From Chloranthus sessilifolius (taxonomy: Eukaryota; Streptophyta; Magnoliopsida; Chloranthales; Chloranthaceae): a stretch of 64,000 bases of DNA. How positions within the stretch are numbered: position 1 is the stretch's first letter; every line of letters starts with the position of its first letter. The stretch lies in assembly GCA_021018995.1 (NCBI GenBank), contig CM037588.1, forward strand, positions 141,481,725 through 141,545,724, written 5' to 3'. Shown piece by piece: positions 24,545 to 54,600 of this stretch. The notes under the pieces are model-generated. The model ran no database searches and had not been told where the DNA came from. It saw only the letters and a list, made by a program, of their open reading frames with translations. A program made the position numbers and the translations under genes.

Positions 24545-24912
24545 TTTTGGACAGACGTCCATGGTTTCTTCACGGAAATCCATGATTTTCACATGTTCTG
24601 TTCACTGAGCACCATTTTTTTGCACGAACGTCCATGGTTTATTCACGGAAGTCCGTGTTCTTCAAAAACTCTACTCAGTTTTGTTTTGTAATATTACAGA
24701 CGTCTATCACCTTATAACGGACGTCCGCTATACTTTGGGCACTGACGCTTCGATTATCCCATTCTTGCATGGACGCCCGTGAGTACCCCACGGAAGTTCG
24801 TCATTATGTCAGTTTCTATTCTCAACGGCGCGAGATCCTATCACACATATTCAAGGGAATCCGGTCCGTTGGATCATGAACGGACGTCCGTGCCCCTTTG
24901 ACGGATGTTCGT
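24545..24912. repeat. GGACGTCC palindrome array upstream of the I 3' ORF
   Basis: Repeated degenerate copies of ACGGACGTCCGT: GACGTCCATGG, ACGGAAGTCCGTG, GAACGTCCATGG, AACGGACGTCCGC, GGACGCCCGTG, GAACGGACGTCCGTGCC, GGATGTTCGTG. Spacing is about 30-60 bases. The same motif returns at 27057-27107. Confidence 0.78.
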
Positions 24913-25004
24913 GAGGCTTTTTATTTAAATATGACAGACCTCCTTCTGGTTCATTCCGTACAAATTTTCTGATCAATCTTCTTCTTGAGGCTTACATTTT
25001 TGTG
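24913..25004 (+). promoter_or_regulatory. Promoter-like leader of the I 3' ORF
   Basis: TATA-like TATTTAAATA (24922-24931) follows the motif array, with a short pyrimidine-rich stretch and then the ATG at 25005. It parallels the layout in C, B and D. Confidence 0.4.
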
Positions 25005-26311
25005 ATGGCCTCTTGTCGCCGTTTTGGCAACTCCTTCGGCTCCAGTTCTCGTATCGCGCCGCCTCCTCTGCCATCGAAGGCTCGTCGAATTCCTTCCGTT
25101 GCCGCCGAGGAATGCTTCAATCATTATTTCGCTTCCGGGTCCTTGGTGGTTGAGCGCCCTGTGCTCGACACATTCCAACAATCGCATAAACTCTACGAGG
25201 ACTTTGCTCAACGAGAATGGCTCTCGTTTTTGTCTCCTTCTTGACCGGCTTACATAGATTGGACTCAATGCTTCTACGCAAATTTTTGGAATATCACTAC
25301 AAAAATAAGAGGTTTCAGTGGCACCTACTATTAAGGCATTTTTTGGTTGCGGGAAGACTAATAGCGGCAGTTTTTGGTAGCGACAGTACTAATAGCAACA
25401 ATTTTTTGTTAAAAAAACTACCGCTAATAGTCTTATTTTTTGTAGTGACATGCACAACGACGATGACCCTTTGGAACGCATTGCTCATAGCAATGTCTAT
25501 GGTCATTAAGTTCAGATCTCTCTTGCCTGCATGTCTGCCATTTTGGGGCTTCCTGTTGACCTTACCAGATTTCGATTTCCTATCTCCGAGGATGAGATCG
25601 AAACTTTCATCGACCCTCAGGCCGTGTACAATCATGTAAGCTCTACCCTTGGCCATCTTACCAATGTTGCTCTTCACTACATCTAGATGATGGAGTGACA
25701 TCAATGGTTGCGCTTTGTTCTCTTCGCCTTCCTCACCCCTCGTGTCGGGAATATGGATCAAGTGCATTAGGACACCATCCTTCTTATGCTCTTGATGGAG
25801 ACCGGCAAGCCTTTGTGCCTCTCCACGATCCTTTACGAAGTGATCGTTCGTCGGATGCACGATGAGAATTCCAAGTCCGTGCTTCCTTTTTCCATTCTCG
25901 TTGGGAAAGTCATTGTAGGCCAGATGTTCCTTCCTCCAACCCTCGCAGAGTCGAAGATGCTTCCTCCCGTTGGCAAGCTTGCGTGCATCGGAAAATGAGC
26001 CAAGACCTCTCTTGATGAGTTGGAGTTTTCTTTTATCGATCTTGAGGAAGGTGATCAGCTTGCATAGCCTTGGTTGGTGATTTTGGTTTGGTTCCTCCTC
26101 CTATGTTGTAGCCCCCGATAGTCCTTCCATATGACCCTCGATTTGACCGCATTGATGGGGATATACATGCTTTGTTTGCTCAGTTGGATTCTGGCTTTAC
26201 CACTTTTGGGTCGAGTTTGACTTCCCTGGAGAACACTGTTGACTCGGGCTTTGTGGCCCTTATGGCACGTTTCAATGAACTCTTACCTCCCCAGCATCCG
26301 CCATCACCGTA
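25005..26311 (+). pseudogene. 3' ORF of fragment I, 'putative plant transposon protein' family, broken
   Basis: The N-terminus is MASCRRFGNSFGSSS with a Pro-rich start, then AEECFNHYF and YEDFAQREW. After a MITE insertion the frame resumes as HQVQISLACMSAILGLPVDL and FPISEDEIETFIDPQAVYNH. It continues with FAFLTPRVGNMD, METGKPLCLSTILYEVIVRR and LPFSILVGKV, and ends with a heptad-like segment (FAQLDSGFTTFGSSLTSLEN) and a Pro-rich tail at about 26311. This matches the family order seen in D and E: a conserved core and a helical C-terminus. Several stops and shifts are present. Function unknown. Confidence 0.65.
25295..25447. mobile_element. Mini-CACTA MITE (153 bp) inside the I 3' ORF
   Basis: Terminal inverted repeats CACTACAAAAATAAG and CTTATTTTTTGTAGTG are typical of CACTA transposons. 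A subterminal inverted pair also occurs (ACTAATAGCGGCAGTTTTT and its complement). It carries no coding capacity. No clear 3-bp target duplication remains (TAT left, ACA right). It breaks the reading frame of the surrounding ORF. Confidence 0.72.
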
Positions 26312-26904
26312 GATTCATTATTTTGTGATGATGGTTGTTTTTGTTCATATTTGTTTGTGTCTCCTTGTATGGGCTATCATTGAAGCCCATTTTGGTTTTC
26401 TTGATCTTGACGTATACAGTCCAATTGACATATATATAAAAATGAAAATCGTTTTGCTTCCTTTGTACATTGCTTGTTATCTTTTATGGGATATGATTGA
26501 CTGATGTTTTCCCTCTTTGTCACACTCTGACAAAAGGGGGGAGATATGTGTTGTTTTTTATATATGTAGCTTTTTTTATGGATTTTTGGGAGGATCTTAG
26601 CCTTGGTATATTTTAGTCAATTTATTTCTTCATTATATTCTCTGTTATGCTTGATCTTTTGTTCTATTATTTCAGGTAACATGTAAAGGTGCGAATGCTC
26701 ATCGTACATTGAAAGCAAGACTTTATATAGAGCATATGATCATACTGGACAAATAAGTTAGGGGTAGGTAGCGAGTTGTACTTTTTAATTGCATACTAGA
26801 TTAATGTATAGGACTTAAATGAGAGCTAATCTGATATATTTTTATTTTCTTTGAGTCCTTATAAGCTAGGTTTTGTCATGATTGTGATGAAGGGGGAAAT
26901 TATT
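26312..26904. other. 3' non-coding part of fragment I with polypurine-like tracts
   Basis: Purine tracts resembling plus-strand primers lie at 26531-26545 (CAAAAGGGGGGAGAT) and 26888-26903 (GATGAAGGGGGAAAT). Either could mark the start of a 3' LTR. No gene was seen. Confidence 0.4.
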
Positions 26905-27700
26905 AGTTATTTTGTCATAATCATGATCGAACCTAGATTTGCTCCAAAAAGTAGTTATAATGCCAAGTATAATCACTTCGACAGATCAACTCCCATCAAA
27001 ATCTGCTTTTGAATTTTGAAAACTCATTTTACCTGATTCTTGACTAAGTCGGGTAGGACGGACGTCCGTGACCGACTCACAGACTTTTGTGGTCATGGAC
27101 GTCCGTGCCCTGTCGGCTACAAAAGGAAAGCTAGGGTTTCAGTGGTCTACCTATGAAAAATATTATCTCTAAAATCTCAAAAATCCACCAAAAATCTCAG
27201 CTTTCCTTCTCCTTGAGATAATTTGTTATTATTCTCAATTGATCAAATCTCAAGGCGAATTTTACCTCTTTGCTTTGAGGTTGAGCTTCTGTACTTCAAG
27301 CTCGTTGTTGGCTCGTGTGATTCGAGCGGACCGTTGTGAGAAATGACTGTTGAAGGCGATAACTACATGCACTGTGAAAAGGACGATCGTGGGATGCGAT
27401 CATTATTGGTGAAGCTGAGTGATAGAGCATTTCATTCATACCACTATAAGCACTTACTTTTCATAGTTGATTATTTGCCTTGGATCTGAGATAGATCTTG
27501 TGATTTTTAATTGTGAAAGGGTTTTCCACGTTAAAATTATTTGTGTTCAATTTGTGATTGATATTGTATTCATATATTGTCAATATTATTGTTTTGCTAG
27601 TTATATCATCGATTACCCTAAATTTTCAATTACAAAATCTTGGGAAGTGCAGAGGGATTGGGGAAGTTGTGCCTATGCTTGAAAACTCATATATGCTCTG
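26905..27700 (+). repeat. Probable 3' LTR of fragment I (ends uncertain)
   Basis: It follows a polypurine tract and contains two GGACGTCC palindromes (27057-27107), the same motif as the array before the I ORF. A TATA-like CTACAAAAGG lies near 27116, and then AAAGCTAGGGTTTCAG. No partner LTR is in the window, so the call rests on order and motif only. Confidence 0.4.
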
Positions 27701-27759
27701 TCATCACATCGACAACAAAAGCATTTCCATAATGGAAAAAGGCTAGAGTTCGTTAGAGC

Positions 27760-28479
27760 CCCTAAAGTACAGGCAAAGAGGCAGATGATATTCATTAGAT
27801 CCTAAAACTGTAAAATTAGCCACACATTTCAATGTAAAAGTTATAAATCAATGAAATAAATTAAAAATAATTCATTAAAAATGCCAAATTTGAGTCTCCA
27901 ACTTGATCCACAAAGTAGCTTTAACCAACGTGCTATGATTCTATCGAAGGCAATTGCTAATCTATCTTCTAAAAAGATAGAAAACAATAAAAGAAAAATA
28001 AAAGACTGAAAACTAATGTACAAAAAGAGAGAGCTCCCTAACCCTAACTATAACTTTGCCTTTTATAGGGCTCTTTTTTGAAACCCTATTATTTCCCAGA
28101 TTTTTGTGAAATTCGACCCAACTCTTCAGCAGACTCAACCTCAGTATTTTGGCCATAATGTTTTACTCCAAATTCGGATTGGAGCAATTCTTAAGGCATT
28201 GGAAAGAAAATAATGAGCTTTACTACTTTGTGTGAAATAGCAATTTCATGAATCCGATGTTTTATAGGTCAAAATAGAGCTATAAGTTTGAATAAGTTCT
28301 AGATGATCCATGGTTGCACGGATTTGACGTTATTTGCTGAACTCTTGGGCTATTTTATTCTTAACTTATCTCTAGACCTATAAATCATGAAAACTATACA
28401 AAATATATTAAATAGCTTTCATCGGATGATAATCTATAGGTTTAAGGGGTCAAATATTAATTATTTTCAATACTTATCA
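27760..28479 (-). repeat. 3' LTR of element H (left end uncertain)
   Basis: On the minus strand it starts TGATAAGTATTG at 28479, directly after GGTTTGCGGGTG, the polypurine site shared with B, D and E. A TATA box (minus CTATAAAAGG, near 28060) follows about 420 bases in. No obvious palindromic array was seen here, unlike the other families. Confidence 0.6.
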
Positions 28480-28520
28480 CACCCGCAAACCTACCCTTCG
28501 CTAATCCTAGAGCAAAGACA
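28480..28520 (-). other. Polypurine tract region of element H
   Basis: Minus strand GCTCTAGGATTAGCGAAGGG then TAGGTTTGCGGGTG before the LTR start. This is the lineage consensus seen in B, D and E. Confidence 0.65.
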
Positions 28521-30455: not shown

Positions 30456-31158
30456 ACTAATTTACAAGGTATAATGACATTCCGAGTCCACCAGGATCCC
30501 TAATCTATTAACAGAGACTTAGTTATAGCCTCATGTTGTGCCCACGTTCCACTAATATGGTCCATCTCTAACCTTTCAATCTCTACCCTGTACTTCACAT
30601 CCACAGGATCGCACTCCTGATTCAAACCCATTAGCCTTTTCTGGGCCTTTTGTTAATTGTTTATGTATTCAATAAATGGAAAACAAGTTAGAAATTCATC
30701 TTTCTCCCCCAAACTAAATTCACATTCATCAGAAAATGTTATGTCTCCCTTATCGCAACATTCTAAAAGTGGATGGTCGACTAACATGACTCATTCCTTC
30801 AGGTGCTGACTCGACATCGAACTCATCGGTCAAGCTGGGTAGATAAGCTTCCAACGGGTCTGTAATGGTGTCCTTTTTCATCTCTCTCGACTTGATTCTC
30901 AATTCCCTCATTGACATTAGAATTGCTCCATTCCATTTCCTATTCTCCTCGCACTACATCAACACTCATTGTGCTAGTCTCGAGCGTAGTGACCAATTGG
31001 TCATGCTCATATTCCTGAACGAAATCAGAGGGGTTGATTTGTGTCGAAATATGAATATATTTTGCACCCAAATACTGACATTTGGCTATCCGATGAAGGC
31101 AACCTAGTGGCTTTGGTGTAGGTTTGATGGTTTCAGGTATTTTCAACCATTGGATCAT
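30456..31158 (-). pseudogene. Unidentified decayed ORF at the 3' end of H
   Basis: Three frames carry coherent protein. About 31158-30940 holds WLKIPETIKPTPKPLGCLHR and KYIHISTQINPSDFVQEY. About 30870-30790 holds ITDPLEAYLPSLTDEFDVES. About 30785-30465 holds KGDITFSDECEFSLGEKDEF, then FLTCFPFIEYINN-stop-QKAQKRLMGLNQ and YRVEIERLEMDHISGTWAQH. It lies where other elements have their 3' ORF but shows none of the YPRLV motifs. The upstream end is cut by the insertion of F. I do not recognise the family. Confidence 0.45.
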
Positions 31159-31171
31159 TCATAAGCATAAA

Positions 31172-32536
31172 TGATCATAATTAAGGAGAACGTGGAAGCA
31201 TTGAACCATGGAGCCAACGAAAGCACTAAAATCCGTGAAGAATCGATTGATCCATCCGAGGATCGACCGATTGATGCTGAGAAGGAATAATTGTACAAGA
31301 TCTCACAGGCCAAAGTCGATCGATCGAAGCTTTAAATTTGATCGATTAATTGACAAATTTTTTATGTGTCAAAAGAACCAAGTCAAAATTGATCGATTGA
31401 GACCTTAGATTCGACCGATCGAGTTTATGAGGCTTTTTGCTGCTCAATTCATATTTTAAATTCGATCGACTTTAAGATATTTTTGCCCGCCAATTTTTGA
31501 TTTTAAATTCGATCGATCAAAAATTGGAATTCGATCGATCGACCTTAAGAACATAACGAAGTTTAGGGTTCGGGACGGTTATCCTTGGTCATTTTTTGAG
31601 TTTTCTTCTTGGTTTTTTTATTTCTTGTAGCTAGGGTTTAGAATTGGGCATTGTGATCTTCAATTTTTAGGATTGTAATCTCTTCTTTAGGCCTTGTTTT
31701 CATTTCTACTTGTAAGTTCTTATTTTAAATTATTGTAAGGTTTCAGATCTTGTCCAAAAAGATCCAAGCTTTTGATAATTGGAGAACCGTGACTGATGGC
31801 TTCGAACTTGTACGTTGTGTATGGATTGAGGATGAGTGGCTAAACCTCTCATTCAAGGAAGAAGCGACCCTTAGATGAGTAATTAATTTATTTCAATTCG
31901 GTCATTTCTTTTACAAATATTGAATCATACGATTTATCGTTTGTGCAAATCGTAGTATCTTTGAATACTCATCTATAATCGTTGATTTTGTAGATCGGTG
32001 ACCATAGAAGGGTTATTTACACCTAGATCGATCTTGTAGATCGATGTAGGGTGTCGTGTGATTAATTTAACTATTGTGGATGTTTATTTTTGATATGTTA
32101 TGCATATTGCATGATTCATGTCATTAGTGAATGCATCATATTGCTAGGATAGTGTATGCAAGATTCAATAATCATATTCTTTTCAAATCATTTTGCTTGT
32201 AGTAAAATGAGGGTAAATATTTGTTCATGTGAAATTATTGGATTGTTTTTAGATAAATTACAAATCTAGGGTTAGCTGAATCCTTGAATGTTTTGTCATT
32301 GCTGCTTCAATTATCAATTGCTTGCCTTGCATAGGTCCTTGTTTAGATCGCATTTGTTTTCCTTGAGTAGTTGTTAAAAACTTATCACAAAAACTTCGTG
32401 GCTCTGGCAAAACGTTCTAACTTAATACTTTTGCGAATCAATTAACTTACACACTTCCCTGTGGGTTCGACATCCTTGTATTCACCCTGGTACAATTGAA
32501 ATTGTGCACTTGCAAGGTTTCAATGTAAAACTATCA
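31172..32536 (+). repeat. 5' LTR of element F (left end tentative)
   Basis: The right end is firm: it ends CTATCA before a primer site. The left end is placed at TGATCATAAT because sister LTRs begin TGATCAG, TGATTAG and TGATAAG. It contains a CGATCGATCG-type array at about 31240-31550. F is inserted in the H ORF. Confidence 0.6.
31240..31550. repeat. CGATCG-type motif array in the F LTR
   Basis: Repeated GATCGATCGAAGC, TTGATCGATT, GACCGATCGAG, TTCGATCGATCAAAA and TTCGATCGATCGACC with short spacers. The motif is shared with D. Confidence 0.78.
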
Positions 32537-32542
32537 AGTTTT

Positions 32543-32819: not shown

Positions 32820-34374
32820 TGATCAGACTCAAAAGATGTATAAGTTATCCCCAAATCTCGGCTCTGTTAATCTTCACTTAACTAATAATGTGCGCTTTTA
32901 GTTCATGTTGTGTTACAACAGGTATAAAAGCTGATTAAATGCAAAAAGTGTTAAAAGAGCGAAGATGTGAAAAAGCCCAAGAAAACGGCAAGAATCCAAG
33001 GAACTCAGCTGAAAAGAGTGTCTTCAAAGGTCAAATAGATCGGTCGAAATTGCAAATTCGACTGGTCAGAATAGCACAGCAGAGGAGGTTCTCTGCTGAA
33101 GAGAAAAGTGATAAAATGGACCGATCGAAGCACTAAAATAGACCAATCAGAACTCCGAAAGCTTCAAAAATCCAAAGAGTGACCGGTCAGGACTCAACCG
33201 ACTAGTTAGAAATGAAATAGACAGAACGAAGAAATCTCAGAGGAATTTATCGACTTGTCTAAAGCCAGTCGACCGGTTTGGAAAATAAAGATTCCTGAAT
33301 CCTTCACGAGTCGTTTCCTACTTGGAGAAGGAAAGTAAACTCGACCGGTAAGTTCTCTGAACTCGATCGATCCCAACTGCGTTTCTGAGCGAAAATCAAG
33401 GTTCATAGCTGTTGATATCTTTTAGGTGCTGAGATCTTCTCCGGGAATCTCTTCTAATAGATGGGTTAACTCCAAATCTTGCGGATTATCTTTCAGAATC
33501 ATCTTCCTTGGAGGATTTTTAGGATTTAAAGATTGCTTGTTGTATATGATTGTTCTAGGGCCATGTAAATCTATAAATAAGGACCCTATGGTTAGGTTTT
33601 AGGGGACTCGCATGCTAGAACTCTTCTAGAGGGCTCTGATGTGAGTTTATGTAGTATTAGGTTAAGAGTAGTTACGGAATGGAGGTAGATTGGATGTAAT
33701 CATCAATTAGAGCCTGCATCAGCAATGATGAAGGTCTCTGATTCGATGTGCGCTTAAAGCTTTGGGCTGGATCTCTTGTAAATTCTGGATAAGTATCTTA
33801 ATATATTTGTATTTTCTTTTTATGTTTGTGAATTCCATTATTGGTATGATTGCATGTTCGAGGCTCTGACTAGATCGAGAATGCGATAGTAACACTGCAA
33901 TCTTATATAGTTTAATCTCAGTGGCCTTGTAGGGATTGGGGATAGATTAGATAGGATATTCACCGACGGACTAGGCCTTGTAGGGTAGTTTTTGTTGGTT
34001 CATACAATGGTTCTTTGACGAGTAGGTTTGTCTAACTCACGATTAGATCTACCTATTTCATATATGAAGTGACTGAGCTTGTAGCCAGGAGTAGGGGTAC
34101 TAGGGATTCACGATAAAAAAGAAGTTGAATTTATTAGTTACGAATCTGGAATCCAAGAGAGATCCCAGTCTGCTTTCTCCTTTCTTATTTCCAAAACTAT
34201 GTAGATTTCTTTTATTTTTATTTTAGAATAATTTAGAAAATCTAATGTTGCAAATTATTGTGTAAAACATAATTAATAGGAGATAAACAACAAATCCCTA
34301 TAGTTCGACACCCTTATACTTGCCCTAGTACATTCGGACTTACGCACTTGTAAGGTTTTGAAATAAAACGATCA
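32820..34374 (+). repeat. 5' LTR of element D
   Basis: It starts TGATCAGACTC and ends CGATCA. It matches 50931-51995 with scattered changes (roughly nine in ten bases by eye in the first 130). The motif array is at 33035-33390 and the TATA box CTATAAATAAGG at 33571. Confidence 0.92.
33035..33390. repeat. GACCGGTC/CGATCG motif array in the D 5' LTR
   Basis: About ten degenerate copies, such as GATCGGTCGAAATT, TTCGACTGGTC, GACCGATCGAAG, GTCGACCGG, CTCGACCGGT and CTCGATCGATC. It ends about 180 bases before the TATA box, so it lies in the presumed U3. Confidence 0.8.
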
Positions 34375-34380
34375 AGTTTT

Positions 34381-36100: not shown

Positions 36101-36112
36101 CACATGAACCTT

Positions 36113-36159
36113 GTCGAGCTACCGACATAATTGTAGTGCTTCTTGGGAGGCAACCCAAG
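36113..36159 (+). other. Post-gag hairpins of element D
   Basis: GTCGAGCTACCGAC (36113-36126) can pair GTCG with CGAC. CTTGGGAGGCAACCCAAG (36142-36159) forms a perfect 6-bp stem around AGGCAA. The first motif recurs with one change in E at 41487-41500, also just after gag. Confidence 0.55.
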
Positions 36160-36299
36160 TCCATTGTAAAGTATTAGTTTAGGGTTTAATTATTAGATCT
36201 AATGTGTTTGGATTGTGCTGGTGTTAACAAAGAAAATAAAAAGTGAAAGAAATATAAAATAGCTGAATGATTGGGTTGAGAATTGAGTTCTCTACAATT

Positions 36300-36595
36300 T
36301 ATTCGATCGGTCGAAATAAATTTTGACTGGTCACTGTAATCTAAAAGGGAAATTGCAGACTGGTCAAGCCTGGATCGATCGGTCAATAGAAATCAAAGGT
36401 TTCTATTTAATGCATTCTGACCAGTCGAAACTATTTCGACCGATCGGTTATAGGGACCCTGCTGCAGAACAGAGGCACTGCTGGAGAACTGTTGTTCTCC
36501 TAATTTTGTGATCGGTCGAAACGAATTCGACCAGTCAAGTTATTCTAAGCTTAGGGCTATATAAGGCTCTAAGATCGGTCAAAATTCCATTTCAA
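36300..36595. repeat. GATCGGTCGA motif array, internal copy in D
   Basis: Repeats such as TTCGATCGGTCGAAAT, TTGACTGGTCA, GATCGATCGGTCA, GACCAGTCGAAAC, TTCGACCGATCGG, GATCGGTCGAAAC and TTCGACCAGTCAAG. It uses the same motif as D's LTRs and stands directly upstream of a TATA box and the 3' ORF. Confidence 0.8.
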
Positions 36596-36837
36596 CTTGT
36601 CTTGCCCTAGCTCCCCTGCATTTCCTTCTTCTTCTTCTTACAGCCTATGGATTTCTCTGCGAATTTTGTGAATATTGTGCATGTTGTGCGGCATTTCAAG
36701 CATACCAACGCAGCACAAGAGTCAACAGCCTACTCGTCGCAGCAACATTCACGCTGTTAGGGTAATCCCGAGCTTTTCTTGTATTTTATTTGCATGAGTT
36801 AGGAAATATTTTCAAAGTTCAACAAAGGCAAGGCACC
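36550..36837 (+). promoter_or_regulatory. Promoter-like leader of the D 3' ORF
   Basis: TATA box TATATAAGG at 36558-36566, then a pyrimidine-rich stretch (about 36596-36640, TTCCTTCTTCTTCTTCTT) and a leader to the ATG at 36838. This is the clearest of the internal promoter-like segments. Confidence 0.5.
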
Positions 36838-38296
36838 CATGGTGGATGCCCCGTCTAAGAAAAAGGCACGTACCACTGTGCCGCCGAACCCTCGTGCTGG
36901 TGTCTAAATTGCTACAAGGTTATCGGCTGTTGCACCACAGCCACCACCGGCTGTTCCCGAGACTCAACCCCTACAGTGGGAGACTCCAAACCCGACAATG
37001 ATGAGCCATGAGTTCTTTGTCAAACCTGAGTTCCACAGGAAAATTTTCAACTAGCTTCCCGAGGCCCAGTTTGCACTAGCCTACTTTTGGCGAGCCGGCC
37101 TCAAGAGCCTATTGATTCCATCAGCGACGGTAGTTTACCCTCGTCTTGTTTGCCTTTTCTATCAAAATCTTACTTATAGTACTGGCAAGCATGAGAGATT
37201 TCTAACTAAGGTCAACGATTTCGACCTTTCAATTGACAGGGCAGCATTAGTTACTGCCCATGGACTCCCTGCGGCATACCCTATGGGAAGTGGCCTAGTG
37301 ACAGGCCAAAACTTCCAAGAATTTGCTGAATTGGTGAATGCCATTTCCGACAAACCACCAGTTGGCCCCACTTTTACCACTCGAGCCACCCTTCGACCCG
37401 ACCTTTTCTTTGCGAACGTAGTGTTATATAAAACACTAAGTCCCATTACACATAAGACCCAACGCTGTGGGGACCTTTTGAAGGTCCTTTACGTTGTCAT
37501 TAAGTGCTAGTGGGTGTCACCGGTGCAGTTGGTTTTCTTTGGGCTGCTTGATATCCACAGGAAATTAGCTGCACCCCACTCCCACAAAAAGTCAATTCGG
37601 CTTTTGTACGGGCGGGAAATCACACACTTGTTACTCCAACAGGGGTACAAGATCGACCCGCGGGAGCCACCGTTGACAAAATTTCCCAAGCTCTATGATG
37701 TGAGCCAATGGAGAAAGGTCCGACCCACTGTTGCTATGGCCTCCACTTCGACTGCACCTCTGGTGGAGACACCAGCTGTCTCCGCCTCTTATCTTGTTGG
37801 ATCTGCTGCTGGGGCAACTGGCACCACCATCTCGGTTCCTTCCCATACTCAGCCTATACCTTTATGCTCTCACCTTCACCACCACTTGAGATGGGGGATA
37901 TATTACACTCCCCTCAGTCTCCTCAACCCCATTTCCTTCCACTCAGGTCGATACTTCATCCATTCACTCACCTACTGTTGCACCTCCGGTCACCGTGCTT
38001 TTAACGGATCCTATCATCACACCGAAGCTTGTACCCACCCCATCCACTTTTATGCCATGTTCTATAGCCCCCACCATGTTCTTTACCGGCACCTTTGATC
38101 TTGAAGTTAGCAAGCAGCTATACTGGCCTCTTAGATGAGGCCATTCATGGGAGCACTGCCCCATCCATGGACCAATTTTTCCCGAGTACATCTTAGTCCA
38201 CGGTGGAGCAGTGCCTCCATGCTTTGGAGGATTGCTACATGAGGCATTAGGGGGGATTTCCTTATTGTTGTCTGGGTCAGGTCTGAGTGGGATTAC
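36838..38296 (+). pseudogene. 3' ORF of D, 'putative plant transposon protein' family, N-terminal part
   Basis: It starts MVDAPSKKKARTTVPPNPRA, with a basic stretch then Pro-rich sequence. The family core follows: FFVKPEFHRKIF, VVYPRLVCLFYQNLTY, DFDLSIDRAALVTAHGLP, RCGDLLKVLYVVIK, RLLYGREITHLLLQQGYKID and PREPPLTKFPKL. A Ser/Thr/Pro-rich segment leads to the insertion point of E at 38296. The stop after DLLKVLYVVIKC and others show decay. It continues at 48196. No signal peptide or membrane segment was seen. Confidence 0.7.
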
Positions 38297-41500: not shown

Positions 41501-41559
41501 TCATCCGTAGCATCATGTGTAAATTATGTAAACTATTTCATGTTTCATTTTTTATTTTC

Positions 41560-41745: not shown

Positions 41746-41819
41746 GGCTTAACTGGTCATCACTGAAAACAGGACCCATATATCCTTAAAAAAGGATATG
41801 TTAGTCCCATTTTAAAAAA

Positions 41820-42092
41820 TCCTTCAGTTTTATCCTTTTCCTCTCCTTTCTTCCCTCTCTTTCTCAAACACCCTGAATCTTAACCATTCTAATAACCACT
41901 CCAGCCATATATTTTCTTCAAAATCTCCTTCTATTTCGATTCATTCTATCGCATATTTGTGGAATTAGGGTTTTATCAATAAGGTAAGGGAACGATTTTT
42001 GAAAGAGATGTATTTGCAGGGGTTGTTTATTCAAAAATGGGGTGTTGAAATTTTGATTAAACATTGGTTGATTTTGCAGAAAACAAAATAGA
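41820..42092 (+). promoter_or_regulatory. Leader of the E 3' ORF with a likely intron
   Basis: A pyrimidine-rich stretch (41830-41880) is followed by AAG/GTAAGG at 41984 and TTGATTTTGCAG at 42079. These make a 96-bp intron candidate ending 13 bases before the ATG at 42093. No clear TATA box was seen. Confidence 0.4.
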
Positions 42093-44728
42093 ATGAAAAA
42101 CGAACAAGGAAAAAGGCAGAGAGACGAAGGGGAAGAAGATGAAGGTAATAGCTCCGATAATCTCCCAATCATTCAATGCATTGCACAGTCTGCTGCCCAA
42201 AAAGATAAATCACAAGCAACAGACCGTCCTAAAAAGAAGACAAAGTCTTTAGGGGTGGTTATCTGAGAAGATCTTACATACACAACTGAGACAGAGTCTG
42301 TGTCTGTCCCTCAAAAGGGCTTAAAATTAGATAAAGGAAAAAAGCTAGCATCCTCTGCTATGATAGCAGATAAGGTTCCTCCTTCAATAAAGAATCATAA
42401 TGTGGGCGCTGAAATTGCAGTGGATGTTGAATCCTTAAAAAAATTAGAAATGGGTGGAGAAGCTATTAAGTACTTCAGAGATGCCGAGTTGACCTATTTC
42501 CTGGAGCCCGGAGTCACACCAGTCTATCCCAAATTGGTGAGGCTATTTTATAAAAATAGGACTAAAAGGAGCCAAGGATTACCCCATACCCTCTCCACTA
42601 GTATAGATGGGCTTTTGATCGAAATTTCGAAAGAAATGGTTGCCAAGGTCATGAATGCACCCCTAGAAACACCACGATTATCCCTGGATAACCTCGAGGC
42701 CAACCTTTTGAGGATGCCATTAGATTCCCTTCTATGTTTCTCTCAAAAGGCAACTAAATTATTAGAAAAAGCTCCACAGGACAGGTCCTTTTTCCTTAGG
42801 AAGGATCTAGAAACAAGGAGCTTATCACTCCACTTTTTTTATGTGCTTATCCATAAAACTATTCATCCCACGGGCCATGAAACGCAGAGAAGAGCTTTGT
42901 TTGCTAAGGCATTGTACCTTATGGAAAATCGCTATTGGTTCAATGTACCCTCATATCTTCTTGAAGTCATCATGATCGTAAGAGAGAAGTTGAGTAAAAA
43001 AAAATTCCAGAAGAAAAAGTTGACCTTGCCATTTGGAGGACTTATTACTAATCTACTGATGAATGTGGGGTATAGTATAAATCCCAAAGAAAAAACTCTA
43101 CCCAGACTAGAGGAAGGCTTGACAGTTTTAGCCTATAGGATAACTTTAGGTGCTGACAATAAGAAGAGAATCCCCTTATTCCCTCGTACCAAAAGTACCC
43201 CCTCTATGCCACAAGTCTCTCAAATTCCTGAGCAAATAGAGGAGACTTCGATAGTACAAATAACAGAAATTGTGAGGTCAGAAGATATAGTTTTAGAAGA
43301 TGGTGAAAATATTTTTACTCCACCACATGAAAGGGTAAGAAGCAGTCCCCCAGTGCCAGAGTAAATACCTGAGGAGAGAATACTAGTTGAAAATCAAGCC
43401 AGTCTATATGACTGAGCTCTGGATTCATCAACAGGGATTGCCATGCCCCATGAAATCGAACCCACTCCAACTGAAACAGAACCGGTGGATCCAAGCAGTG
43501 AAGCAGCAGAAGCTTCTCTGGCATTAGTTGAACACCAGAATGTTGAAGTGGCTACTTTTGTCCAAGTTCCTATCAGTCTTCAACCAATTGCCCCATCAGA
43601 GGCATTATCAGCTCCACCTCCTATGTCGCAAATAGAAGGAGTGAACCAAGGAATCGAAGTCACATCCCCTGTTGACTCCATAGCTACCACCACTGCACCT
43701 ACATCCCAAGTTGCGGAATTAAGTCTACATATTGAAACCCCATGAGAGAGCTTCAACGCACTCTTACATCAGGAAATATCTGTTCCAGCTACTACTTCAA
43801 CAGGCCCAGTAATTGAACCTGATCTGGAGAGAAGATTAAAAGTAGAGCAATGATAAATTTCCAATGCCCAATTACCAGATATAGTCAGGAGAATGATGGA
43901 TGAAATATATATGTTGAAATGCAGATTACGGGATAACATACCTATTGCAGAGGAAAAACAAGAGATGATTGCCAACATGAAACAGAAGGCAGTCAGGGAA
44001 TATCGTGTCCATTGGGTAGTCGAAACATATAAGAAAATTCAAGAAGAAACAGCAGCCCTCAAAAACCAACTGGCACAGGTACAAGAAGAGAACGGGATTC
44101 TGTAAGAAAAACATCAAGGGTGGGAAAGAAAAGGAATATGATATGAGGATAGAATAGCACAACTTGTCGCACAATTGATAGAATTCATTGGCAACCCAGA
44201 TGCTCTAGAAATACCAAGAGAAAAAGCCCATCAAGAATATGAACAAACCCTGAACAAATTATGAAAAGAGAAGACTCATGAACTACTATAACTCAAGGGA
44301 AAGTCCTTAAACTTCAAGAGGAGGAGTCCCTGAGTCTCATCTGTGCTATGAAAAATGAAAAGATTGAGTCACTCATCAAAAAAATTTGGACCACTGTAAC
44401 AAAAGAGAAGGCTATTTCTGATAAGCTGAGGGAGAAAAATGATGCAAAATATGTTGTAATTTACCAATTATAGAAATGACAGGCCATGCTAGAAGCAGAA
44501 CTGCAGGCCTTGAAAGCAACTTACGAGCCGGTAGAAACAGAAAAGGGAGAATCAGAAGCACCACCTGAAGAGGAAATAGAGTCTGACCAAGAATACGATT
44601 CTGACTGCAGCACTGCAGAAATGTCTGACTCTGATGAGGACTGCATTAACAACTTGGTTATTATACCAATTGCACCACATTTCCCTTCCAGATCAATTGT
44701 CCCATATCCTGCATCACCTAGTGAGTAA
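42093..44728 (+). pseudogene. 3' ORF of E, 'putative plant transposon protein' family, nearly full length
   Basis: The N-terminus is charged (MKNEQGKRQRDEGEEDEG, then RPKKKTKSLG), like a nuclear signal. The core, a 354-codon open stretch (42300-43364), includes YFLEPGVTPVYPKLVRLFYK, LIEISKEMVAKVMNAPLE, HKTIHPTGHETQRRALFAKA, YLMENRYWF and LPFGGLITNLLMNVGYSINP. A Ser/Thr/Pro/Glu-rich middle and a long helical, probably coiled-coil C-terminus follow (TYKKIQEETAALKNQLAQVQ). The end is acidic and DSD-rich. About eight stops interrupt it. This is the best copy in the window for defining the family's layout. Function unknown. Confidence 0.75.
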
Positions 44729-46590
44729 ATCTCTAGATATATCACAAACCTCATAGGTATAATTCCAATAGATTTTCATTTTTTTTATCCTTGTAAATAT
44801 TCGATTATATATAGAATTTTCTTTTAATTTCCTTACTAACAGTGTGTGTTGCTAACATTGCTAATATTTTTACTAACTCTTTTTTTTTATTTATACTAAG
44901 AGCATAGACCGTTGGCTATTTTTCTCTTAAGTTTAGGGGAAGAATTTTTTATCCAGTAACAGATTTTTTTCGGTATACACTTAAAGTATCAATAATTTCA
45001 TAATATTTTTTTTGTATGTCCCCTGTTTTACACAATGAGGACATTGTCCTATTCAAGTCTGGGGGGAGATATACAAATCTGTATATAGTAGGTAACCATT
45101 TTTTTTTTTCTTTAGTTACCAATTTTTTTTTATTTAACAAATTTTTTTAGTTAATCATTATATGCAAATTATAGAAAATTTTTTTGGAAATCCGAAATTC
45201 TTAGCAATCCATCAAAGTAGTAGTTCAAAAACCAAAATGAAAATAGTAGCAATTCAAAGTAAAGCATCTTTAGACACTATATAAGATGATGTTTAAAACT
45301 ATATGATTGATATGAACTGCAAAATATTTTAGATTATAGTTTTATAATCATATAATCAGTGCGCTTTAGAGCCTATTTCCTCTTTATTCTGAGAAAGAGA
45401 GACTATTTTTATTCATGCTAAATTTTTTTTGAACTTCTCTACTATTTGAATTCTCATACTGCTGAACTTAGAATCAAACGAATTCTGTGAATATGATGAT
45501 TTATTCGTTTAGAACCAGCTACTAAATATATCAAAACAATAAGACATCCATGTCAGAAAATCGTGAAAATGACCAAAGGCCATCTTTTGTTAAACCAGAG
45601 CCAAAAAGCCAGAATCCCAGAACATTTTACCATTTGAACCCATATTAGAAGCCTAAAGCTTATATTTCTTTTTACCGAAATCTTATAAACCTTTAACCAT
45701 ATGTACTACCCAAAGCTTTTTACCTTTAACCCTTACAATTTTTGAGAGTTTTAGAATGTGAAAGAAGGGGAGAAGAGGGAGTGAAAGGAGTATACGCTGA
45801 ATAGATAAAGGATCTGCTAAAAACAAGGTGCAAAGAAAAGAAATAGATTTGTATGAAAATATGGGAGAAAAAGAAAGAAAATTGTGAATAACGATTTAGA
45901 AAAAAAAAATCGTGAAAAGACGATTTTGAAAAAAAAGAAAAAAAAAAGAAGAAACAAAATTGGAATTTACATTAGGAAAAAATGGGAAGAAGTTATCCGA
46001 TTTCTAGATATTTATTGAAGTAGAAAAATAGAAGAAAAAGAAAAAGAAGAGTGAAATTCTCAAGAATAACTTTGAATACTTTTTACCTTTTCTTTGAAAC
46101 TTTCTAAAAATCTAAAGCCCCATTACAAGCCGAAGGAAAGACCTTTGAGATTTATTATTTGCAAAGATATGAGTCTAGTAGGGATATACGAAATAGATGC
46201 TATGAATAAATAAAGAAGTTATAAGAACAGAATTGATTATCTTTTTCATGAGATTTAATTTTTTGATTGATTGTCCTCTAAAAATTTATCATACTTATCA
46301 TATTAAGAGAACCCAAAAATTTTGATTATCCTCAATAAGTGAGTTTGAATGAAAATATTTTCTAAAAATTATAGTTTAGAAAAATCTATGATGAATAAAT
46401 TTTTCACTGATATGCACACACTCCACGCTATACTGAATTGAAATTGTTGAGTGCTGATGAAGGATGATTATGATGATGGAAAGTTAAGGATAAATATTAA
46501 AAAAATTTGGAAATAATGAACATATGATGATTGATTTTGAATTTTTAGTTTTGAGAAATATTTTGAAAAATCTAAAAACATATTTTGAAA
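44729..46590. other. 3' untranslated region of element E
   Basis: AT-rich. A purine run TCTGGGGGGAGATATAC at 45058 resembles a second plus-strand primer. Half-sites of the E palindrome recur at 45885-45925 (AACGATTTAG, AAATCGTG, GACGATTTTG). No gene. Confidence 0.55.
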
Positions 46591-46710
46591 GTTTGTAGGT
46601 AACTTTATTGAAAACCATCAGGAGACTACAACTCCTCCACTAGGGATAACCTAGGGGTTTAAAGGCTTGTTGCATCTGCTAAATGCAATCATGCTCTCTA
46701 CGAAAGTGGC
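46591..46710 (+). promoter_or_regulatory. Conserved 3' non-coding block, E copy
   Basis: GTTTGTAGGTAACTTTATTG, then CATCAGGAGACTACAACTCC and CTAGGGGTTTAAAGGCTTG, ending CTCTACGAAAGTGGC. It stands 73 nt before the 3' LTR. Confidence 0.82.
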
Positions 46711-46744
46711 ATTTAAATTTATAGTTATAGATATTTTTTGTTTC

Positions 46745-46783
46745 CTTGTTTGCTAGGGATAGTAAAACTTAAGTTTGGGGGTG
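46745..46783 (+). other. Polypurine tract region of element E
   Basis: TGCTAGGGATAGTAAAACTT then AAGTTTGGGGGTG, abutting the 3' LTR. It matches D, B and H. Confidence 0.78.
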
Positions 46784-48195
46784 TGATTAGTCACATAATT
46801 TACTATTTTATCACCCTTAACTTAGTGTTGCTAGGACTTAGTTTGCTACTAATGTGATACTGATGTGCAGATATTAGAGATAAGTAGTAAAAGAGAGCCT
46901 AAGTGTTAATCTTTGACAAAATAAACTCAAAAGGCAATAAGAAAGATAATTAAGCGAAAAAGACATTTTTCAGCCTACTAAAAGTTAGAGAATCGTAATT
47001 AACGATTCTTCAAAAGAGACGAAAAGAGAAAAGCGATAAAGCATAATTCAGAGAATCGTCAATTATGAGGAAGCTTTGAGAAATAGAAAATCGTGATTAA
47101 CGATTTTCCAAAAAAGAAGCTTTCCTACTATTGTTATTGCTGCTGATCACGTGAGTGAAAGTTACCATCGCCATATCCAAAATTAGAAGACTCTTGCAAT
47201 TAGAAGTTTGGTGAATCACAGATCTGAGAAGATTGACAAAGATCTATCCGAAGGACTCTGCTGCTGCTAAAGAAAGAATAATCTAGAAGCGCATCACTAA
47301 AGAAAGCAAGAAAAGATAAAATTAGGAGTTAGAGTTATATTATGATACTTTTATTTTCTTATTTTAGAACTAGATCTTTGTAAACCGACTCCTTATGTTC
47401 TATAAATAAGAGAGCTCGGCATAGGAGTAAGCATTGAAGAATTTCAGCGTCAATTGACGCCTGAGGTTAGATTTTCTTTCGATCAGTAGTGTATACTAAT
47501 TAGAGTAGATTATATATCAAAAGTTTCTCAAGTGCAATTGATGACTACAATTGAGTGCTGAAGATTAGTGTAGATATCATAGTTTATCAGAAGCAATTGA
47601 CGATTGCGGCTGAGGGGTGAAAGATATATTTTACTTTGCTTTCTAATTTAGATTTATTTACTTTTTAAACATCTCCAGGTTTTGATTTGAATTGACGGCT
47701 TAGGTTGGAATTTGCAAATTAGTGTAATGAATTTTTATTTTCCATCTTCAATTTTCTAAGGTTTGACTGACGCCTAGATTTTAGGAAGTTGTTGATTAGA
47801 TTAAATCTGTATTGATAGGATCTTAGACTTGATTGACGATCAATGCTAGGAGACTAGAAATATGGTGTAACGGTACTGTTTATTTTCATAAATATCCAAT
47901 AGCTGAAGATTGAGATTGACAACCTTAATCTGAAGGAGGATTAGGATTTATTTTTATGCACTTTAGATTTAGAAAACATTCTTTTATCCATATTTCTCCA
48001 GCAAATTAGATCTTAAAGATAAGTTGAAGTTTTTAAGATAAGAATTTAGATAGAAGATATAAATAAGAAGATAAAATAGATACAAACTTCCATGTGGAAA
48101 CGATCCTAATGCTAGTACTATAATTTTCATTGTGCACTTGCAATAGGTTAAGACTTGAATTTAATAAAATATATATACACTCAAGAATATAATCA
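46784..48195 (+). repeat. 3' LTR of element E
   Basis: Partner of 38297-39712, with palindromes at 46988-47108 and a TATA box at 47400-47409 (CTATAAATAAG). It ends ATAATCA before TTTAC. Confidence 0.92.
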
Positions 48196-48904
48196 TTTAC
48201 CCATGATGATGGGTCTATACCTCCACCGAGTCCACCATCCCCTACATCTTCTGTTGATGAACCCTTCACAGATGAGGGTTCGACCGTGAGGCCCCTCCCA
48301 CGGAGCCTGTTGATCCGACTCGTCCATCTTCTTTGGGAGAGTCGGATGTCAACATTACTCCAAGGCCCGTTGGGTTAAAGGAGCCTAGCTCCTCCTCCCC
48401 AGTCATAGAGGGGATGGTACATGAGGTTCCCGAGGATGGGACCTCCTTAGGTTTGGTTGTGCGCTAAGAGGGTCCACTCGACCTCGTTCATCCGACCCCT
48501 CGACCTGGGCCATTGTGCCTTTTCAAAGTGAACCTACTTGGTCTAGGGTCATGGTTGAAGCCACTTTTGTCCACGTGTTGGGTGTGTACACCAATGCTCT
48601 TGAGGAGGAACTTTATTGATCTAACGCTGCCTTGGCTGCCGAGCGATCCTTGACAGTTTCTCATCGTGAGAATTGGTTTACAATGAATGAGGCCAATGAG
48701 GCATTGAAGCTCAAATTAAAATATGAGGAGTATTACCACAGGGAGGATGCCATATCTTTTATGGAGGTTGCCTTAAAGCATGCGGAGGCACGTCGACAAT
48801 GGGATAAAGAGCTGAATAACTTGCATAACCAATTGTCTCCCATTGTCCTTGATGTTGATGACAATGACTTGGGTGGTTCTCACAAAAAGGGTGACACCTT
48901 GTAG
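48196..48904 (+). pseudogene. 3' ORF of D, C-terminal part after E
   Basis: It continues D's 3' ORF: a Pro/Ser-rich stretch, then 90 open codons (48632-48904) with NEANEALKLKLKYEEYYHRE and ALKHAEARRQWDKELNNLHN. This is a helical, probably coiled-coil segment like the C-terminus in E. It ends at a TAG at 48902-48904. Confidence 0.65.
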
Positions 48905-50930: not shown

Positions 50931-51995
50931 TGATCAGACTCAAAAGATGTATAAATTATCCCCAAATCCCGGCTCTGTTAATCTTCACTTAACTACTAAT
51001 GTACGCTTTTAGTTCATGTTCTATTACAACAGGTATAAAAGCCGGTTAAATGTAAAAAGTGTCAAAAGAGCGAAGATGTAAAGAAACCCAAGAAAACGGC
51101 AAGAATCCAAGGAACTCAGTTGAAAGGAGTGCCTTCAAAGGTCAAATGGAACGGTCGAAATTACAAATTCGACCAGTTAGAATAGCGCAACAGAGGAGGT
51201 TCTCTGCTGAAGAGAATAGAGGCAAAATGGACCGATCAAAGCACTAAAATCGATCGGTCAAAAAAGCTTCAGAAGTCCAAAGAGCGACCGATCAGGACTC
51301 AACCGGCCGGTCATAAATGAAATTGACAGAACAAAGAAATCTAAGAGGAATTTATCGACCGGTCTGAAGCCAGTCAATCGGTCTGGAAAATAAAGAGTCC
51401 TGAAGCCTTCACGGGTTGTCTCCTACTTGGAGAAGGAAACTAAACTCGACTGGTCAGTTCTTTGAACTTGACTGGTCCCAATAGCGTTTCTGAGCAAAAA
51501 TCAAGGTTCGCAGCTATGGTTATCTTCTTGACGCCGAGATTTTCTCTCTGGGAATCTCTTCTAACAGATGGGATAACTCCAAATTGCACTGATTACCTTC
51601 CAGAATCATCTTCCTTGGAGGATTTTTAGGACTTAGAGATTGTTTTTCGTGTATGATTGTTCTAGGGCCTTGTAAATTTATAAATAAGGACCCTCACACT
51701 GTAACTTTTCTAGAGGGCTCTGATGTGAGTTTTTGTAGTATTAGGTTAGGAGTAGCTTCAGAATGGAGGGAGATTGGATGTAATCATCGATCAGAGCTTG
51801 CATCAGCAATGATGAAGGTCTCTGATTTGATGCGCACTTAAAGCTTTGGGCCGGGTCTCTTGTAAATTATGGATAAGTGTCTTAATAAATTTCTATTTTC
51901 TTTTTCTGTTTGTGAATTCTATTATTGGTACGATTGCATGTTTGAGGTTCCGACTATATCGAGAATGCGATAGTAACACTGCAATCTTATGTAGT
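50931..51995 (+). repeat. 3' LTR of element D, left part, cut by G
   Basis: It matches 32820-33910 and stops at CTTATGTAGT, where the TGTAAACACC end of G begins. The motif array is at about 51140-51480 and the TATA box TATAAATA at 51679. The missing third should lie to the right of G, preceded by a copy of GTAGT. Confidence 0.9.
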
Positions 51996-53589
51996 TGTAA
52001 ACACCTAAATTCGGCCCAAGGCCAGATCAATTTGTACTTCGGGAGAGATGTACCCCTGTGCTTCCGATGGCCACCCCCCCCCTGAACCCTTAGGAACCTA
52101 CCTAGACCAGTAGGAATCACCCTAAGACCTTTAGAGCCATTTCCCCAATCCTTAGAAGTCACCCCTACACCCTAGAATCCCTTCCCATACCTAACTTAAA
52201 CCCTTCTGGCGGTTGATGGGAGGAGAGATACAGAATTTCACACAGACTAGTACCATGGATGAGCCATATACCATTTGAAAGAGGACTTCTCCAGCTTTCC
52301 AACAAGCTAAAGATCACCCAATTTGGAGCTGCGGTTCAAAAGTTATGGCCATTTTAAGTTTCACATAAAATCATGAATTTTATACAGGCGTAGATATTAC
52401 ATATGCCCAGCCATTTTTACCCCAGATTACTTAGGCGTATATATTATATACGCCTGCCTATTTTGGGAAAATTTGGCCGGGCGTATATAATATATACACC
52501 CAATATAGGTGGGACCCACCACGGGTTTCATCTTCTCAAAACTCCCTTGATTTTGGTGAAAATTACTGTTCCTAAACTGGGCGTATATAATATATACGCC
52601 CAACTTAGCTACAGTAACTGTCATCAGTAGATCGAATTTCCTGCATCTAGTTTGACCCTTTGACCATCCCCTTGGCTGAGGTGGGTGTCTTGAGATTGGT
52701 TGCACCCCCTTTGAGCTTATTGGCAACCCTTAAGTCACCCATGGTCTCACCCCATCATCAGCCATTGAAACTAGTTTCCCAAAACCCTAGGACTTTAAAA
52801 ACCCAAAAAACCTTAGATGGGGGATTACCTAATTGCTAAACCAATTAGCTCTTAAGTAAGCCCCTAACCCATCCATTCTCTGTAAATAGAGAGGCCTCCC
52901 TCTTCCTTAAGGGTTGGAAGAAATTGGAGGTTAAGGATTTGGAGCCCAAGAGAGAACCCTAGTGAGAGAAAGTGCACTCATTTTCCAGAATTCCAGCCAG
53001 CTTAGTTCATCTTTTCCAATCCATTTCCACCATTAGATCACTCCCTTTAGCTAAAACCTAGCCTCTAGCTTCACTCTACACCCCTACTTTATTGAATCCT
53101 AGCATTAGAACCCATTTTCACACCATTTAAGCCATCGGAAGCACGTCAAAGCGAAGATCTTCCACGGTGCAACAAGGGCCCGCGAGATCCGGCTCACCCC
53201 TCTCTTCCTCTACCTTCTTGGTGTCTCCTCCGTCCAAGGATTCAAGCCGTTATGCCGCCGAAATTTCGGTTTGGCTCAAAGCTTGATAGGACCGTATTGC
53301 CTTCGGGCAAGGGGAAACTCTGCCCTCTTTATTTTCATTTTTGGCCATAGATAGAGACCGCTACGTGCGGGTTGATCGGGTGCCTAAACCCTTCCCGATC
53401 GATAACTGAAGCCCCTACCCTAGAGCCTTTGGCAAAGACGGTAAATCAGAGTCATATTTAGCACTTCGGTGGTCAAAATATCGATTTGAAGGTTTCCTGG
53501 GTCACCAAAAGCTCCGGGTGGCGACTCTACATTTTCATCAAAGGCGAGCGCATCGCTGCGACGGGTTCGAGAGGATCCATGATCGCACA
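51996..53589 (+). repeat. 5' LTR of element G
   Basis: It starts TGTAAACACC and ends GATCGCACA. It carries four long palindromes (52385-52605). A weak TATA-like TGTAAATAGAGAGG lies near 52881, and a GC-richer downstream part with plant-like leader composition. The partner is outside the window. Confidence 0.82.
52385..52607. repeat. Long AT-cored palindromes in the G LTR
   Basis: There are four copies near 52387, 52431, 52480 and 52580. The best has perfect 11-bp arms (GGGCGTATATA and its complement) around a single base; the others have one to several changes. Spacing is about 45-100 bases. Confidence 0.85.
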
Positions 53590-53591
53590 GA

Positions 53592-53609
53592 TGGCGACTC
53601 TGCTGGGGA
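53592..53609 (+). other. Primer binding site of element G (tRNA-Arg type)
   Basis: TGGCGACTCTGCTGGGGA two bases inside the LTR, as in Tat/Ogre elements. Confidence 0.78.
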
Positions 53610-54417
53610 CTTCACCCTAGCGCTTCCCCTCTTGTTGGCCTTTCCTTTTATTTTGTTATTTTACTAACCATGGCTGTTTTTTGTTCCAATTTGCTGCTAT
53701 TTTTCGCTATTTTTCGTTGTTTTTACTAACGTACTCACCCCTACGATTCAGTCCTTTAAGTGCCTTAGCCGTTTGGCGGGCCTACTTGCACCATAAATTT
53801 CAATTTTTACAATTCTAGTCATTTAAGCCACCTTAGCCGTTTGGCGGGCCCGCTCGCATTTATTTTCACGTCATTTAAATTTCGGTCATTTACAAGCCTT
53901 AGCCATTTGGAGGGCCTACTTGTGCACTTTATTTCGGTCATCATATTTCACCTTTGAACGTCGGCCCGTTGAGGCGGCACGGGTTTGTCATCTCCGACCT
54001 GATTTTGGACTTAATTTCACTCCCCTATAAAAATTTGTAATTAAAAGTGACCCAATAGTATGGGGACATAATTGAATTTATTTTTGCATTTTTGGGTAGT
54101 TTTCGGGGGGTTTAGGCACAGATACAATTTACCCAGTTCCCAGTAAGGCGGCAGCCCTAGTGGTGATGATCCTGAAAAGAACCACCTTCCAAGACTGAGA
54201 AGGCGCTTGCGCCGGAGGTATATCGGTTGGGTTGCCAATTCCGATCAAGCCGTAAAACCCGCATTGGTGAGAGCGTAGAAAACCCAAAATTCAGCCGTGT
54301 ATCCCTAAGAAAAGGAAAGGAGGGACCCGATAACAAACACAGCAGTCCCCGGGAGCATTTCTCCTAAGAAACCAGTTCAAAGACCCACATTCGGGCTTGT
54401 TGTCCACTATCATACAG
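53610..54417. other. 5' leader of element G, first part
   Basis: Non-coding. The phrase CCTTAGCCGTTTGGCGGGCC occurs three times in variant form (53760-53920), a tandem repeat of about 65 bases. CCTATAAAAATT near 54024 is TATA-like. Confidence 0.5.
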
Positions 54418-54600
54418 AACCTTTTGCCCGGCGTATATAATATATATGCCCAACAAAATAGCCCAAGATTTACACAAGCGTATATAATATATACGCCCAG
54501 CCAAAATCCCCAGATTTAAGCCAGGTGTATATAATATATACGCCCAGCCAAATCTGTACCTTTTTGGCTCAAGGTATATATATACGCCCGATATATCCGG
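54418..54600. repeat. Long AT-cored palindromes in the G leader
   Basis: Four copies (near 54425, 54478, 54524, 54571) of the same palindrome as in the LTR, each followed by CCCAACA, CCCAGCC or similar, as the LTR copies are. They lie upstream of gag. Confidence 0.82.

Follow-up and report, generated by a model that had tools for sequence, protein, structure and literature searches.

Family-specific palindrome arrays in the long terminal repeats and internal leaders of nested Athila-type, Tat-type and Sirevirus-like retrotransposons of Chloranthus sessilifolius

The closest described counterpart of the arrays reported here is the set of repeated motifs (RM) of Sireviruses, which are Ty1/copia retrotransposons. 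In 13 Sireviruses, element-specific palindromes lie in the long terminal repeat (LTR), upstream of TATA and starting 200-400 bp into the LTR; the nine of them with ENV have further copies in the linker upstream of ENV, which are missing from the four that lack ENV. Regulation was proposed for these motifs, and an internal promoter was favoured but none was pinpointed (Bousios et al. 2010, PMC2829016). In maize, the regulatory part of Sirevirus LTRs is likewise known to contain palindrome clusters (Bousios et al. 2016, as cited in PMC10760457), and in the VANC/VANDAL system of Arabidopsis motif arrays and VANC proteins evolve together (Hosaka et al. 2017, PMC5735166). We analysed a window of 64,000 nucleotides from Chloranthus sessilifolius (assembly GCA_021018995.1, contig CM037588.1, positions 141,481,725 to 141,545,724, forward strand) and found the layout known from Sireviruses in Athila-type and Tat-type elements as well. 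A first-pass annotation of the window, made from the sequence alone, had known of no general description of such arrays for Athila elements; the layout was already described for Sireviruses, and for Athila or Tat we found no report of it in searches of the open-licence PubMed Central literature.

Self-alignment, primer-binding sites (PBS) and open reading frames (ORFs) indicated that the window is plant-like DNA in which LTR retrotransposons are nested in one another (Table 1). Region borders were set from LTR pairs, PBS and ORFs with the motifs ignored, and those of elements F, H and I are approximate. Elements B, C, D, E and F are Athila-type and G is Tat-type, labels based on PBS and ORF layout. 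The Athila-type elements have TTTTTGG(C/T)G, which we take to be the Athila PBS consensus, after the LTR (32539, 34377 and 39715 on the forward strand; 18931 and 14856 on the reverse strand) and a third ORF (ORF3) downstream of gag/pol. ORF3 is present in C, D and E and vestigial in B, and the interior of F is missing; a sixth match to the PBS, at 27194, was taken as chance. Element G has the PBS TGGCGACTCTGC at 53592, with RT_RNaseH and RVT_3 within one ORF; this PBS and a second RNase H are, we assume, markers of Tat. The Sirevirus-like element I shows near-matches to the Sirevirus polypurine tract AGGGGGAG (AGGGGGGAG at 26535 and AGGGGGAA at 26891), and the Sirevirus PBS TATCAGAGC has no match in the window, which holds only a 3' part of this element. 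The arrays are not confined to Athila elements, since they also occur in Tat-type G and Sirevirus-like I. In B, D and E the gap between gag and leader is too small for pol, as judged from ORF positions (gag of D and E by eye), and all three keep LTR and leader arrays despite this, the leader array of E weakly.

Each of 17 regions was compared with 200 dinucleotide shuffles for 6-mer enrichment, using the 95% maximum as the threshold. A motif word exceeded it in 12 of the 17 regions, namely the LTR and leader of C, both LTRs and the leader of B, the leader of D, the 3' LTR of E (barely), the LTR of F, and the LTR and leader of both G and I. Motif words were top-ranked yet under the 95% maximum in both D LTRs and at the threshold in the 5' LTR of E, and no enriched motif word was found in the E leader or the H LTR with these shuffles. 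Some non-motif words passed too, for example CAGATC in the B 5' LTR and C LTR, CTTGTA in the F LTR, and CGTCAA/ATTGAC in E.

In a held-out test, a single LTR of each element (the 3' LTR for B, the 5' LTR for D and E) served to train a palindrome-constrained expectation-maximization model (score floor 3), and its scores on six leaders were compared with those on 300 shuffles. The motif learned from an element's own LTR was recovered in the leader of five of six elements: C, B, D, G and I each gave 0/300 shuffles. Element E gave 82/300. The kin pairs C to B, B to C and F to D also gave 0/300 each, and three of 39 unrelated pairs scored at 3/300 or less (C to I, 0; B to I, 0; H to D, 3). The learned motif exceeded the shuffles of its own LTR in seven of eight elements, the exception being C (48.2 vs 49.2), in a comparison limited to 8 shuffles, with the width picked on the real data and the real data given more starts. 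A 6-mer cross matrix of 66 pairs (200 shuffles) gave 0/200 in seven of nine own pairs, with 8/200 and 13/200 for E, and in four of four kin pairs; it is less specific than the held-out test because eight of 53 unrelated pairs scored at 2/200 or less.

Concentration in LTR and leader is seen for the motif of B/C, that of D/F, and those of G and I. In the 39,254 bp outside the regions lay three of 47 matches to [TG]CGCG[AC], seven of 38 to the D/F octamer, two of 13 to the I half-sites and none of four to the G core. The E half-site is not concentrated in this way, since 12 of its 37 matches fall outside. Chance from base composition is ruled out for B, C, D, F, G and I by the shuffles and the held-out test. 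The original proposal that each family carries its own palindrome array in the LTR and again in a leader thus stands for B, C, D, G and I and in part for E, and H, set apart at the outset as an apparent exception, has an LTR without a convincing array. As in Sireviruses, many copies of an element-specific palindrome occur in the LTRs of B, C, D, F, G and I, and in the LTR of E, though not in H; a second set of the same motif precedes the env-like ORF in B, C, D and I and partly in E, and lies before gag instead in G. The window contains no leader of F, and for H none was identified.

Table 1 Elements, arrays and associated ORFs in the window.
Feature	Coordinates	Strand	Remarks
Element C	LTR 18937-21395; leader 2105-3260	(-)	Athila-type
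Element B	LTRs 7668-10205 and 14860-17362; leader 12305-13060	(-)	Athila-type, nested inside C
Element F	LTR about 31100-32538	(+)	Athila-type; interior cut off by D
Element D	LTRs 32820-34375 and 50931-51998; leader 36105-36838	(+)	Athila-type
Element E	LTRs 38297-39714 and 46784-48197; leader 41440-42094	(+)	Athila-type, nested inside D
Element G	LTR 52001-53590; leader 53610-54920	(+)	Tat-type, inserted in D 3' LTR
Element H	LTR about 27650-28480	(-)	Left end approximate
Element I	leader 24480-25005; LTR about 26903-27640	(+)	Sirevirus-like; only a 3' part in window
C LTR array, TCGCGA/GCGCGAG	20620-21060	(-)	LTR +336 to +776; TATATAA about 212 bp downstream
C leader array, after integrase ORF and before ORF3	2395-2925	(-)	Held-out 0/300; tandem repeats (84, 63 and 19 bp) in part of the array
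C ORF3, broken	1283-2104	(-)	Basic N-terminus; one piece matches PF20167 at E=0.1
B 3' LTR array, CGCG-centred	9388-10010	(-)	TATATAA about 211 bp downstream
B 5' LTR array	16540-17165	(-)	More eroded
B leader array	12503-12700	(-)	Held-out 0/300; ORF3 vestigial
F LTR array, TCGATCGA type	31240-31550	(+)	6-mer enrichment
D 5' LTR array, GACCGGTC/GATCGGTC type	33035-33390	(+)	Held-out training LTR; below 6-mer threshold; TATAAAT about 181 bp downstream
D leader array	36300-36595	(+)	Held-out 0/300; TATATAA close to array 3' end
D 3' LTR array	51140-51480	(+)	LTR cut off by G; self-alignment, 6-mer cross matrix
D ORF3 pieces	37055-38095	(+)	PF20167 E=0.058 in first, none in second
E 5' LTR dyads, AATCGT-N-ACGATT	38507-38627	(+)	TATAAAT about 287 bp downstream
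E leader	41560-41745	(+)	Degenerate half-sites in excess, dyad spacing not kept
E ORF3	42267-43364	(+)	PF20167 E=1e-7, below gathering score; basic stretch upstream of in-frame stop
E third site, ORF3 to 3' LTR	45885-45925	(+)	Extra dyads; 29-bp tandem unit, 2.2 copies, 45874-45936
E 3' LTR dyads	46988-47108	(+)	6-mer enrichment, half-site count
G LTR array of GGGCGTATATAATATATACGCCC	52385-52607	(+)	Tat-type; 6-mer enrichment
G second array, after PBS (53592) and before gag	54418-54600	(+)	Held-out 0/300; 47-bp tandem unit
I leader array, ACGGACGTCCGT type	24545-24912	(+)	Held-out 0/300; precedes broken ORF
I LTR array	27057-27107	(+)	Two GGACGTCC sites
H LTR, no convincing array	27650-28480	(-)	Weak 8-bp model only, unlike the motif kind first annotated

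The array coordinates used in the dyad, folding, TATA, LTR-offset and CpG analyses were those of the first-pass annotation or at most 10-20 bp off. By these borders array starts range from LTR +155 to +385 in six elements (C, B, D, E, G and I), close to the 200-400 bp of Sireviruses. A search with a self-made pattern list, run without a chance control, located a TATA-like box 181-292 bp past the array in seven of the ten LTRs, those of B, C, D and E, where the placement upstream of TATA holds. In the leaders, a canonical TATA was present in D only, and B and I had AT-rich near-matches. In B, C, D, E and I a distance of 94-348 bp separates the end of the leader array from ORF3, and the second array of G is located between PBS and gag; the internal place thought to be the same in all families is therefore shared by the first five and not by G.

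The arrays are probably sites of dyad symmetry to which a dimeric DNA-binding protein binds, with one regulator acting on the genomic transcript and on ORF3. Each family would have one set of such sites within U3 of the LTR, ahead of the main promoter, and a second set in the ORF3 leader (the gag leader in G). In favour of this reading are the recovery of LTR-trained motifs in the leaders of five of six elements, the concentration of most motifs in the two places, the LTR offsets and TATA distances, the position of leader arrays before ORF3, the sites kept in B and C, the arrays kept by B, D and E, which have no room for pol, and the parallel of linker copies and ENV in Sireviruses. We infer protein binding, an action on transcription and a role of the leader as internal promoter from sequence and position. 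Several observations weigh against this reading. No canonical TATA follows the arrays of F, G and I (three LTRs), to which the position claimed for the LTR arrays does not extend, and none was found in the leaders of B, C, E and I. Neither 6-mer enrichment nor the held-out test gave a convincing array in the H LTR, the E leader failed the latter, and the material comprises about five motif types in one window. Six other ENV-containing Sireviruses lack the motif, and splice acceptors have been predicted for Athila ENV, which would make an internal promoter unnecessary (PMC2829016 and work cited there).

Related families gave further evidence on how the sites change. Between B and C the array stretch was alignable only in fragments, with long blocks of the remaining LTR at 77-80%, and CGCG-centred sites were retained in both despite this. 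Elements D and F have one octamer scaffold in common and differ in the half-site, with CGGTC:CGATC at 19:22 in D and 3:23 in F. The Fisher p value is 0.003, and 0.03 if the D 3' LTR is excluded; both values are only indicative because overlapping words on both strands of whole regions are not independent. Both pairs support the view that, as in a cis element, the motif changes in sequence and keeps its place.

Each LTR of E contains six exact AATCGT/ACGATT half-sites (0/500 shuffles) and two exact dyads (0/500). Its leader has 16 half-sites at up to one mismatch, vs 8.5 expected (1/500), and no clear excess of exact half-sites (34/500), convergent dyads (128/500) or divergent dyads (27/500). 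The stretch 44730-46783 has exact half-sites at 1/500 and one exact convergent dyad (0/500). The held-out result of E is no test of the AATCGT dyad, because the motif learned from E was another one. A second repeated word, ATTGACG/CGTCAA, occurs in the E LTRs at 38968-39430 and 47448-47925 (positions by eye), with 6-8 counts per LTR, downstream of TATA and enriched above the AATCGT motif.

Alternatively, host transcription factors may bind the arrays, a different factor for each family, which we regard as possible though doubtful. The ACGT and CGCG cores presumably resemble sites of plant factors (bZIP, CAMTA). Sites recovered in Sirevirus RM were mainly those of stress-related factors, but no common site for a single factor was found (PMC2829016), and the recurrence of the same motif before ORF3 is not explained by host binding itself.

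Observed/expected CpG was higher in the array than in the rest in 16 of 16 regions. With the motif words masked, CpG was still 1.7-2.8-fold over the rest in six of 13 (C LTR, B 3' LTR, E 5' LTR and the leaders of C, E and I), under the rest in five (F, the G LTR and the leaders of B, D and G) and about level in two (D 5' LTR and I LTR); where the excess was lost or level, the motif itself therefore carries the CpG. By plain density the G leader array has fewer CpG than the remainder of its leader. Tandem repeats were found in the C leader, the G leader and the E third site. These repeats, together with the CpG excess and its survival of masking in six of 13 regions, are what would be expected if the arrays were a functionless by-product, formed when short units with CpG were duplicated in DNA that evolves fast or is less methylated. 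This explanation is unlikely: the same motif occurs in two places per element, and masked CpG falls below the rest in five of 13 regions and close to it in two.

Local folding was compared with 60 shuffles. The z values were -2.8, -2.3 and -6.6 (leader) for D, -3.8 for F, -5.6 and -6.1 for G, -5.0, -4.2 (leader) and -6.3 (third site) for E, and -3.5 (leader) and -1.9 (LTR) for I, and the four B and C arrays that were folded showed no clear structure excess (+1.1, -1.2, +0.4 and -1.5). Arrays acting as RNA hairpins, either as packaging or dimerisation signals or as small-RNA templates, would account for the folding in D, E, F, G and the I leader, and palindromic Sirevirus regions of maize are discussed as structured and rich in small RNAs; in structure the folded B and C arrays differ from these. 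We nevertheless consider this function unlikely, as any palindrome raises the folding score trivially, and hairpins are not a common property or a common cause because the B and C arrays lack a clear excess. Taken together, the alignment, half-site, tandem-repeat, CpG and folding results fit DNA binding sites better than a shared RNA hairpin.

The arrays resemble Sirevirus RM in being element-specific, CpG-rich palindromes with many LTR copies, beginning within the first few hundred bp of the LTR and recurring upstream of ENV. The Usier RM GTCGGACGTCCGAC and the element I motif ACGGACGTCCGT have a 10-bp core, CGGACGTCCG, in common. Unlike the RM, which were called Sirevirus-specific among the Ty1/copia elements compared, the arrays of B-F belong to elements with Athila-type PBS and layout, and Tat-type G has its second array before gag. 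Motif inspection located the CGG-CCG core, present in 12 of the 13 published Sirevirus motifs (all except Tnd-1), in element I only, and B-G were for this reason not filed under the Sirevirus motif family. With VANC/VANDAL the arrays have in common short motifs in non-coding DNA, evolution by tandem repeats, and differences between related families with near-variants in sub-families; the half-site difference of D and F recalls the C-type and T-type VANC21 motifs (PMC5735166). VANDALs differ in being DNA transposons for which a trans factor and its binding were demonstrated, whereas the present arrays are known from sequence, and the VANC21 motif YAGTATTAC/T is not palindromic.

The binding-site reading has a more specific form, in which the nuclear, sequence-specific ORF3 protein of each family would bind the LTR and leader arrays of its own element and activate or un-silence it in a VANC-like manner; we offer it tentatively, and a self-encoded regulator is put forward as a hypothesis. 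In B, C, D, E and I a leader array lies ahead of ORF3, and by eye the ORF3 N-termini of C, D and E have basic, nuclear-signal-like stretches. A sunflower Athila ORF similar to PF20167 has been reported to carry a predicted nuclear signal, Sirevirus linker motifs co-occur with ENV, and the joint evolution of VANC proteins and motif arrays points the same way. PF20167 matched ORF3 of E at 1e-7, below the gathering score, and those of D and C at 0.058 and 0.1. The ORF of I had no PF20167 match and, broken as it is after the leader array, no credible Pfam match, and no domain was shown to be common to I and the Athila-type ORF3. Profile searches and PDB sequences (best E=0.63) revealed no DNA-binding domain in ORF3 proteins. 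Further points against self-regulation are the B leader array, kept with only a vestigial ORF3, the G array, which precedes gag, and the ENV-containing Sireviruses without motif. Among 2283 candidate homologues of E ORF3 none reached E<=0.001. Viral contigs had 0 matches to the Athila PBS and two reverse transcriptase pattern matches, and prokaryote contigs 20 pattern matches, none of either confirmed; three plasmid records had reverse transcriptases at 28-35% identity.

Some side observations concern individual elements. Between the two B LTRs (14860-17362 vs 7668-10205) differences are denser in the array (64 of 627 positions) than elsewhere (110 of 1863); CGCG occurs 12 times in the 5' LTR vs 18 in the 3' LTR. 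At 30 of the 77 CpG positions that could be aligned the difference is a TG or CA, which suggests decay by methylation. Near the start of the C gag frame a 31-bp unit is repeated in 3.1 copies at 96% match (18559-18654). Next to C, 21870-22180 resembles by eye host exons for a protein disulfide isomerase; a 27-residue peptide from it had no PDB sequence match at E<=1. Before the G gag domain, proline-rich frames (55862-56312) contain a tandem repeat of 57-bp period with 6.9 copies at 55862-56260.

Proteins encoded by an element have been considered before as agents of its own regulation: a 2026 sunflower paper leaves open if Athila ORFs modulate their own methylation, and a 2025 paper on Retand suggests a regulatory, probably DNA-binding antisense protein. 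More speculative still is the proposal that the Athila 'envelope-like' ORF3 is a nuclear, family-specific DNA-binding regulator and not an envelope, with the LTR and leader palindrome arrays as its cognate sites, and that such VANC-like self-regulation arose in several unrelated plant retrotransposon lineages. If the arrays described here are general, the Sirevirus layout would span Ty1/copia and two Ty3/gypsy lineages, pointing to a shared regulatory logic, and it would offer a direct test of the puzzling function of plant 'envelope-like' genes, because each family provides a motif and an ORF3 to pair.

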